Positions 62,860-64,000 of a stretch of 64,000 nt of DNA are shown here, piece after piece (the stretch's first letter is position 1; the number at the start of each line of letters is the position of its first letter). The stretch spans positions 62,600,487 through 62,664,486 of the forward strand of contig NC_080175.1 in assembly GCF_950295315.1 (NCBI RefSeq), written 5' to 3'. Origin of the DNA: Erinaceus europaeus (Eukaryota; Chordata; Mammalia; Eulipotyphla; Erinaceidae). The notes under the pieces are model-generated. The model saw only the letters and a program-made list of their open reading frames with translations, was not told the DNA's origin and ran no database searches. The position numbers and the translations under genes were made by a program.

Positions 62860-62968
62860 TCTTTAAATATTTATTTATTTATTTCCTTTTTGTTTGTATT
62901 GTTGTTATTGATGTCATTTTTAGATAGGACAGAAATTGAGAGGGGAGGGGAAAACAGAGAGGGGGAGA
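62860..62968 (-). repeat. ERI-type SINE cut by the provirus
   Basis: The antisense SINE reads from its tail (TATTTATTTATTTCC) to GAGGGGGAGA and then stops abruptly at the LTR. The remaining head should lie beyond the 3' LTR if the provirus is complete. Confidence 0.75.
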
Positions 62969-63376
62969 TGTTGCAGAGGAGTTATTCTGATGCAGTCTCT
63001 GCCCCCAGGTTTTTCTATGCCCCGCTAAATCCTAGAGTGCCCCCTTTCAACCAATCCTGGCTCCGCCCTCAGGTTTTTCTATGCCCCGCTAAATCCTAGA
63101 GTGCCCCCTTTCAACCAATCCTGGCCCTACACGTCACCCCTGGTTGTCGCCCAATAAAAAGCCCCCTCACCCCTCCCCTCTCTCTCTCTGGGCTCTCGGC
63201 TCTCCCTCTCTGAGGTCTCGCTCCCTGCTCTCCCCCCGTGGTCGGCCATTGCTGGCTGGCTCCACGTGGTCTGAACCTAACCTCCCCCCATCCTATAATA
63301 AAGATTTGTGTACCCCTTTGCTCTGGACATCCGCTCTCTTCTCCGCGGTGCAGCCCGACACCAGACCACCGCAACA
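62969..63376 (+). promoter_or_regulatory. 5' LTR with doubled U3 block
   Basis: It begins TGTTGCAGAGG and ends CCACCGCAACA, giving inverted TGTTGC/GCAACA ends. The 64-bp block 62997-63060 is repeated at 63061-63124 with two differences near its start. Each copy carries a CCAAT box (63051-63055, 63115-63119). A TATA-like CAATAAAAAG lies near 63152, and the polyadenylation signal AATAAA is at 63297-63302. Order and spacing are those of a working retroviral LTR. Confidence 0.88.
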
Positions 63377-63381
63377 ACATC

Positions 63382-63399
63382 TGGCGCCCAATGTGGGGC
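63382..63399 (+). promoter_or_regulatory. Primer-binding site for tRNA-Lys
   Basis: The 18 nt TGGCGCCCAATGTGGGGC, five nt after the LTR, are complementary to the 3' end (with CCA) of tRNA-Lys1,2, with one C-to-T change at a CpG. This primer type is used by betaretroviruses. Confidence 0.92.
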
Positions 63400-63452
63400 A
63401 CGAACCCATGACCCTGAGATTAAGAGTCTCATGCTCTACCGACTGAGCCAGC
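63382..63452 (-). other. Near-complete tRNA-Lys(CTT) copy continuing the PBS
   Basis: The minus strand reads as tRNA-Lys from the CCA end back to about nucleotide 6-9: T arm, variable loop, anticodon arm with GACTCTTAATC and D arm GGCTCAGTCGGTAGAGCA. Compared with the conserved mammalian tRNA-Lys-CTT as I know it, 67 of 71 positions agree. Differences are two CpG-type C-to-T changes (63392, 63409), T-to-A at 63400 opposite A58, and T-to-C at 63449. The 5' acceptor strand is absent, so it cannot fold as a functional tRNA. A tRNA finder may flag it as a tRNA-Lys gene or pseudogene. Confidence 0.9.
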
Positions 63453-63986
63453 GGCTGACCTCCCTCATGCAGCGTTGCATCCCCTGCCAATTCTTCCCCT
63501 AGCCATCTACTTCGGACTGAGACTTGTATCGGACTTTCTGACATACCCTATATACATTTTACACAATTTTGAAGCAGCTTATTTCCCTTCACGCTGCTGG
63601 TTTTTCATAGACTGATCCTGAGTAATTCATAGACTTTACAGACTGTTGCCTTGAGGACTATACAATGCCAAATAGCCCCTCTGTTTTCTGGGTCATGCCT
63701 CCCGCCTCCCCCTCATTATGTACCCTTGCCCCTTTCCCCACCCAAACAGGGAATGCTCCTTTACACACCAATCCTTCCCTTCACACCACACTGGCTTTTA
63801 CTTCCCCCCTACTTGTCCCTTCCTATTTTGTTTAGGCTTATGCCCAAAAGGTTTCTGCCCCATGATAGTCTTTTATAGACTTTGTACATCTTATGCAATT
63901 ACTAGATAGAAAGATAGAAAAGATGTAGAGATATTGTGAAGAGATGGTTGAGCAGGCTGCCCTTAAACCTATGAGATGAGTCTCTC
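63453..63986 (+). other. Retroviral leader, no gene seen
   Basis: Sequence between the tRNA-like copy and the splice donor. It is C/T-rich (TTGCCCCTTTCCCCACCCAA) with no credible coding frame. Confidence 0.6.
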
Positions 63987-63995
63987 CAGGTAAGT
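63987..63995 (+). promoter_or_regulatory. Consensus splice donor in the leader
   Basis: CAG|GTAAGT, a perfect U1 match, with the cut after 63989. In retroviruses a donor here makes subgenomic mRNA. In this intron it could also feed into NCAM2 exons downstream. Confidence 0.7.
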
Positions 63996-64000
63996 CTCTC

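Follow-up and report, generated by a model that had tools for sequence, protein, structure and literature searches.

How did a provirus come to carry, directly after its 5' LTR, almost an entire tRNA in antisense orientation? The question is raised by the end of a 64,000-nucleotide stretch of hedgehog DNA (Erinaceus europaeus), referred to here as the window. The antisense copy of tRNA-Lys(CTT) starts at 63382 (TGGCGCCCAATGTGGGGCACGAACCC...), two bases 3' of an LTR of the form TGTTG...CAACA (62969-63379). The Rfam tRNA model matches 63393-63450 on the minus strand with 36.6 bits (gathering score 29, E 1.5e-5), and the likeness to a tRNA is therefore not a matter of chance. ARAGORN made no tRNA call on the 63382-63452 copy. 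An earlier reading of the letters alone (the sequence-only reading) had described a long copy beginning at the complement of CCA, and the LTR boundary and the Rfam match confirm that this copy is real. The locus is very likely a scar of abnormal reverse transcription, in which the tRNA primer was read through past 1-methyladenosine 58 (m1A58) and plus-strand transfer was then misdirected. The features of this locus (L001) are as follows.

62963..62968, plus strand: left target-site duplication (TSD), GGGAGA, inside a SINE.
62969..63379, plus strand: 5' LTR of 411 bp, TGTTG...CAACA, of a class II/beta-like endogenous retrovirus (ERV) family for which we coined the label LTR_A; the coding domains of the family come from a sister locus, L033.
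62990..63117, plus strand: 64 nt of U3 duplicated in tandem; the element's 3' LTR lacks this duplication.
63380..63381, plus strand: spacer TC, separating U5 from the tRNA copy.
63382..63399, plus strand: 18-nt antisense copy of the 3' end of tRNA-Lys(CTT), nt 76-59, which is the normal length of a primer-binding site (PBS).
63400, plus strand: A in place of the T that faithful copying of tRNA nt 58 would give; the m1A58 misinsertion signature.
63401..63448, plus strand: read-through copy of tRNA nt 57 to nt 10.
63449..64000, plus strand: 3' part of the LTR_A-family interior, which follows the tRNA copy without a gap and runs past the window to the 3' LTR.
L001:2334-2690, beyond the window: 3' LTR of the element.
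L001:2691-2696, outside the window and after the 3' LTR: right target copy TGGAGA (5/6), where the SINE sequence resumes.

L001 is a two-LTR element of 1581 bp in all. Its interior lacks about 5.7 kb of upstream internal sequence, which L033 retains ahead of the common 3' part, and it has no gag-pro-pol domains of its own. Five open pieces of L033 gave Pfam matches to Gag p24, two zinc knuckles, protease, reverse transcriptase with its thumb, RNase H and integrase with IN_DBD_C, with RNase H and the Gag p24 C-terminal domain slightly below the curated cut-offs. Judged by these predicted domains and by 6-bp target duplications, LTR_A is a class II/betaretrovirus-like ERV. The letters after the tRNA copy, CAGCGGCTGACC, are LTR_A-family interior (L017, L033 and L011 read ...ATTCCAGCGGCTGACC at the same place), and the reliable tRNA copy therefore stops at nt 10 (63448); an end near nucleotides 6-9, as first proposed, was a slight overcount. 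The letter at 63400 is indeed A instead of T. Other changes in the copy are C to T at 63392 (nt 66) and 63409 (nt 49), both at CpG sites, and one at 63449.

The assembly (2.72 Gb) was searched with 63360-63480. Among the best 40 of 1227 candidates, which were scored, most match through the tRNA and similarity then ends. The window's own assembly holds at least 64 loci with a long tRNA copy, of which 64 were read; all locus counts are lower bounds. Every one of the 64 copies starts with the CCA complement, although TGG has one altered letter in four of them. In 62, the start is two bases 3' of a U5 end, which belongs to LTR_A in 46 and to a second family, LTR_B, in 16; the U5 tip of LTR_B is usually TTTTAACAACA. 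In 37 of the 64 the last copied nucleotide is exactly tRNA nt 1, and in the others it lies at nt 2-23, with a small cluster at nt 9-11. L142 and L144, which have no CCA complement and do not lie at an LTR, were kept out of the 64. In L155 and L157, tRNA-Lys copies beginning at the CCA complement adjoin sequence that is neither LTR_A nor LTR_B, and these are perhaps further LTR families with the same scar.

The species is rich in SINEs, which we take to be tRNA-related, and a tRNA gene or a tRNA-derived SINE might have been inserted beside the PBS. Such an insertion has next to no probability here, however, given a copy that holds the CCA complement, is antisense to the provirus and keeps a fixed distance of two bases from U5 in 62 of 64 loci. 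The junctions inspected showed neither a TSD nor an A-tail belonging to the tRNA, and none of the copies looked like a separate tRNA insertion with its own TSD.

Most of the long copies look like separate reverse-transcription accidents. Only two small groups, L005/L022/L024/L025/L026 and L139/L140/L143, resemble multiplied copies of one event. In the first, which lies on contigs of about 0.2-1.7 Mb, the five loci have one common junction (LTR, tRNA to nt 10, LTR piece) and for this reason look like multiplied copies. If a single ancestor had gained the long copy with its altered letter once, and all loci had inherited it, the variety downstream would be due to later internal deletions. The nearly uniform letter opposite nt 58 and the common junction within each of the two groups agree with such an ancestor. 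On the other hand, the 37 junctions exactly at nt 1 are at a position that has significance only for a strand templated by the tRNA itself, and the 7SL RNA that follows some copies begins at its own nt 1. The copies are also spread over two LTR families and three U5 subtypes (11, 9 and 8 of 31 read-through copies tested), and the same subtypes hold ordinary copies (24, 16 and 2 of 43 tested); 30 of 40 places in the least biased LTR_A census, described below, have ordinary leaders. Because junctions, LTR families and U5 subtypes differ, a single long-PBS ancestor was rejected as very improbable. The sequence-only reading had further suggested that, if other members share the copy, the element has spread with a larger leader that mimics a tRNA. 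This is not supported, since the junctions differ in most copies and there are ordinary members without a tRNA copy.

The letter opposite tRNA nt 58 is A in 56 of the 64 loci, T in 7 and C in 1. When the two multiplied groups are collapsed, 58 loci remain, with 50 A, 7 T and 1 C. At all other positions these 58 loci have 46 differences in 4179, of which 31 are CpG transitions, and no site other than nt 58 has more than 8 differences. Both families show the preference, LTR_A with 41 A, 4 T and 1 C (n=46) and LTR_B with 14 A and 2 T (n=16). The first 30 loci were found with a query that itself had A opposite nt 58 and are therefore biased toward A. A neutral sample of 24 long copies (L001 among them), from a query ending before nt 58, has 21 A, 2 T and 1 C, and 18 loci from a query with the faithful base have 14 A and 4 T. 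The T in 7 of 64 loci points to faithful bypass or to an unmodified primer. As described in PMC13191261, m1A58 normally halts plus-strand strong-stop synthesis, and an unmodified primer is copied to its 5' end; as described in PMC4787781, reverse transcriptase at m1A shows arrest together with misinsertion, depending on the context. The prevalence of A suggests that the copied tRNA carried m1A58. Its recurrence in two LTR families, in copies that often end exactly at nt 1, supports the original proposal that a mature, CCA-bearing tRNA was read through with misinsertion at the m1A58 site.

The A would instead be a faithful copy if the template had U58, from a tRNA-Lys gene or pseudogene with T58, or otherwise had no m1A58. 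Two tRNA-Lys(CTT) loci, L158 and L159 (positions 496-585), have 90 bp in common, flanks included. L159 abuts a SINE and carries T58, yet ARAGORN still recognises it as a tRNA, and the 73-nt query of the copied tRNA-Lys(CTT) had no 100% match among the best 40 of 534; both points favour a U58 template. Against it, the sole gene-like tRNA-Lys locus found, L158, which is followed by a T-run, has A58 (but its A57 differs from the copied tRNA), and L159 has the flanks of L158 and looks retroposed. The pair looks like the result of pre-tRNA retroposition in which m1A58 was copied through. The 7 T and one C at the site are hard to derive from a U58 template, and A58 is, to our knowledge, near-universal in tRNAs. 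We consider a template of this kind highly unlikely. The sequence-only reading had counted on the species having no tRNA-Lys with T58; among the loci found this holds for the gene-like one, although the SINE-adjoining copy does have T58.

Ordinary members of both families provide the background against which the long copies can be read. For LTR_A the least biased census came from U5 plus TGGCGCCCA as the query, a choice with no bias toward either form; its best 40 places are those most like the U5 of L001 and not a random sample. Ordinary leaders make up 30 of these 40 (one inferred from adjacency), with 5 long copies (one of them L001) and 5 short tRNA-Lys-type misjoins. When the query ended in the full tRNA-Lys-type PBS, the best 40 consisted of 24 long read-throughs, 14 short misjoins and 2 ordinary copies. 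The ordinary LTR_A PBS is TGGCGCCCATCGTGTTCC or a close variant and matches tRNA-Lys(CTT) at 14 of 18 positions, 9 of them contiguous. It is carried by all 20 LTR_A copies that were fetched upstream of the leader, two of them with one altered letter.

The ordinary PBS of LTR_B is TGGCGCCCACGTGGACC with close variants, and 9 contiguous positions match in 16 of the 17 PBS-bearing copies among 20 fetched. With a less biased LTR_B query, for which 27 of the best 40 places (the query's own included) were examined together with places known earlier, 22 places bore a PBS: 17 ordinary, 2 with a tRNA-Lys 18-mer and a normal leader, 2 misjoins and 1 other. None of these 22 has a long tRNA copy. Where the LTR_B query included the tRNA-Lys PBS, the 20 places fetched gave 7 tRNA-Lys 18-mers with a normal leader, 5 long copies, 6 short misjoins, 1 ordinary copy and 1 without a PBS. 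The 7 of 20 with an 18-mer and an ordinary leader indicate that a tRNA-Lys-type PBS, or the mismatch, is not always fatal. A plain 18-nt tRNA-Lys PBS was also considered for the ordinary members and was ruled out by the contiguous match of about 9 nt in both families. The ordinary PBS may use a primer other than tRNA-Lys; we know of no tRNA end that fits it. In L060, L061, L070 and L101, which include both LTR families, an 18-nt PBS is followed by a common AACTGC.TAGACCTGCGTC.. sequence. Two extended tRNA-Lys PBS patterns had 0 matches each in a viral contig collection, a result that says little on animal ERVs.

The sequences joined to the tRNA copy were traced in 41 loci, the 23 later loci being covered unsystematically. 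In 21 of the 41 the partner is the interior of the same family, cut at varying points, and the idea that the variable partners are mainly captured host RNAs was ruled out by this count. Three loci enter 7SL RNA in sense orientation from its nt 1 (L002/L031, L003/L032 and L019/L045; Rfam Metazoa_SRP, E 2.8e-19 for L031 and 1.3e-20 for L045), and four enter an inverted leader (L016, L018, L077 and L156). The leader contains GCCCGGC, and the inverted-leader and 7SL joins thus have a 7-nt identity with the tRNA end. Each of these two classes has one junction site; its loci were counted as separate, and some could be copies. Other partners are LTR sequence, inverted LTR_B (L014/L042) and DNA of no recognised family or host DNA. 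The ordinary LTR_A leader (L120, L124) contains, shortly after the PBS, CACCACGCCCGGC, the reverse complement of 7SL nt 1-13 (L045), which is possibly an old captured 7SL fragment or due to chance.

Junctions at premature stops differ from those at nt 1. Microhomology was scored by hand in loci from the 41 traced, with L001 and L021 taken as nt 10 ends, L054 as nt 14 and the partner of L021 as host DNA. The test leaves out L008, L051 and L068, four further members of the L005 group (counted as duplicates), the three 7SL and three inverted-leader joins with 7-nt identity, and five nt-1 joins that lack a known parent. At the 15 premature stops the mean microhomology is 1.87 bases vs 0.35 expected, a value reached in 0 of 20000 simulations; at the 8 ends at nt 1 it is 0.63 vs 0.32 expected (P 0.13). 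These values suggest that premature stops were transferred through microhomology and that ends at nt 1 jumped between template ends in a nearly blunt manner. The microhomology at nt 1 does not distinguish jumping by reverse transcriptase from end joining.

It is to be weighed whether the read-through end was joined by host DNA end joining in the nucleus and not by reverse transcriptase. The blunt-like joins at nt 1 agree with host end joining. So does L021, in which a lone LTR with tRNA (to nt 10) is joined to host DNA and flanked by 251-257-bp duplicates of it, as if strong-stop-like DNA had been integrated by one end. The two-LTR composites, however, carry 6-bp TSDs, and their joining therefore preceded integration. 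An exact 6-bp TSD is present in 7 of the 11 with both ends visible (L030, L035, L040, L041, L045, L048 and L049), and the remaining ones have a 5/6 match (L001, L038 and L050) or 5 bp (L017); the count leaves out L024, L025, L026, L034 and L047 (one multiplied group, the second LTR piece continuing into PBS-like sequence). Host end joining also fits poorly with the 7-nt identity used by the 7SL and inverted-leader joins and with microhomology so far above chance at premature stops, though end joining can use microhomology. We regard it as unlikely.

Joining during reverse transcription is the reading that we prefer, and the composites give it some detail. L045 consists of LTR, tRNA, 7SL and LTR with the TSD GAGGGG, that is, a host RNA caught between LTRs, whereas L001 carries none. 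The LTR pairs of the 11 composites diverge by 0% (L030, L040), 0.2% (L041) and 2.6-4.4% (the other eight), and the near-identical pairs indicate that some events were recent. One LTR is about 55-65 nt longer than the other in U3 in L001, L048 and L045; a plus-strand end taken from another RNA of the same particle would produce such an asymmetry. Four single-LTR insertions, L031, L032, L036 and L043, have a 6-bp TSD (5/6 in L043) and a right end that is not an LTR and ends in CA (oriented positions ~829, ~823, ~823 and ~695). The right end of L031 is 7SL sequence (..GGCATCA), that of L032 is at the same place within one base, and those of L036 and L043 are ..TTTTAACAACA, which resembles the LTR_B tip, and ..GGAACAACA. 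Integrase may accept non-LTR ends that terminate in CA.

The following sequence of steps would account for such inserts. Plus-strand strong-stop synthesis would run from U5 into the tRNA-Lys(CTT) primer without halting after the usual 18 nt, and reverse transcriptase would bypass m1A58, usually inserting A. The 3' end copied from the tRNA would then fail, or be unable, to pair with its proper acceptor and would switch to another 3' end, such as a truncated minus strand, another LTR strand, or a minus strand that had previously switched onto packaged 7SL RNA. A stop inside the tRNA would lead to a switch by short microhomology, whereas synthesis that reached nt 1 would be followed by a nearly blunt end-to-end jump or by use of the 7-nt identity. 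The contiguous PBS match of about 9 nt would make the copied tRNA end a poor match for the acceptor and would favour misjoining; from the PBS comparison, the mismatched PBS is thus a candidate cause of the failed transfer. 7SL is described as abundant in retroviral particles (PMC4997597).

A broader interpretation is offered tentatively, as a possibility somewhat short of even. These ERVs would replicate with a PBS of about 9 matching nt and would not inherit the primer sequence, and copied tRNA would usually misdirect transfer. The mismatched PBS, perhaps kept by escaping silencing by tRNA fragments, would then yield a steady supply of rearranged inserts, each recording the bypass of m1A58 on one molecule in the germline. 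Failed transfer could be the cost of a mismatched PBS. Ty1 and Ty3 are described as strictly inheriting their own PBS and not the primer copy, and for mouse ERVs it has been argued that a mismatched PBS is kept to evade tRNA fragments (PMC7472051).

The m1A58 stop that sets the 18-nt rule for the PBS comes, according to PMC13191261, from in vitro work and HIV-infected cells. The hedgehog genome holds at least 64 inherited products of a failure of this stop, and with so many products the insertion at nt 58, the next stop site and the fate of the product can be tested from germline sequence alone. The loci suggest that a mismatched PBS has a cost and that 7SL and other sequences can enter proviruses along this path. 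If ERVs of other mammals bear such scars for other primers, genomes would be an archive of past tRNA modification in the germline.

Among the open PMC matches listed, a set that mostly leaves subscription papers outside, no title or opening abstract mentions integrated full-length primer-tRNA copies with the nt-58 signature. Several known systems are alike in part. Large deletions were reportedly attributed by Pulsinelli and Temin in 1991, to judge from the title, to errors in strand transfer. LTR-mediated retroposition (Tan et al. 2016, via PMC5408686) also involves template switching between an element and packaged host RNA, with integration between LTRs; the excerpts of PMC5408686 at hand mention no primer-tRNA copy, whereas here the copy is at the 5' junction and the partners are often the element itself or 7SL. 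HIV provirus deletions associated with tRNA-Gly likewise have a reverse-transcribed tRNA beside a deleted provirus, but it lies near the 3' end and is proposed to be self-primed (PMC12220202), and in the hedgehog it is tRNA-Lys(CTT) at the 5' LTR. Mouse ETn, MusD and IAP are, like LTR_A and LTR_B, common ERV families with a PBS that mismatches the primer. In that study faulty insertion at tRNA modifications was considered for the PBS, and the PBS mutations are reported to match no known modification (PMC7472051); in the hedgehog copies nt 58, just outside the PBS, does match one.

In lentiviruses and spumaviruses, a sequence of primer over-extension similarly continues the complementarity to the primer beyond 18 nt beside the PBS (PMC13191261). 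That sequence is described as short and part of the viral genome, whereas the hedgehog copies reach up to 76 nt and are absent from ordinary members. Read-through of tRNA-Lys3 in HIV-1, observed in vitro with unmodified primer and in TRMT6-mutant cells, also yields plus-strand DNA in which the copied primer extends past the 18-nt PBS and A58 to the 5' end of the tRNA, and only products that stop at nt 58, 55 or 54 are reported to act as active templates (PMC13191261). The HIV-1 case as described there is a biochemical product, whereas the hedgehog copies are integrated and inherited, at dozens of loci, with an altered letter at nt 58.
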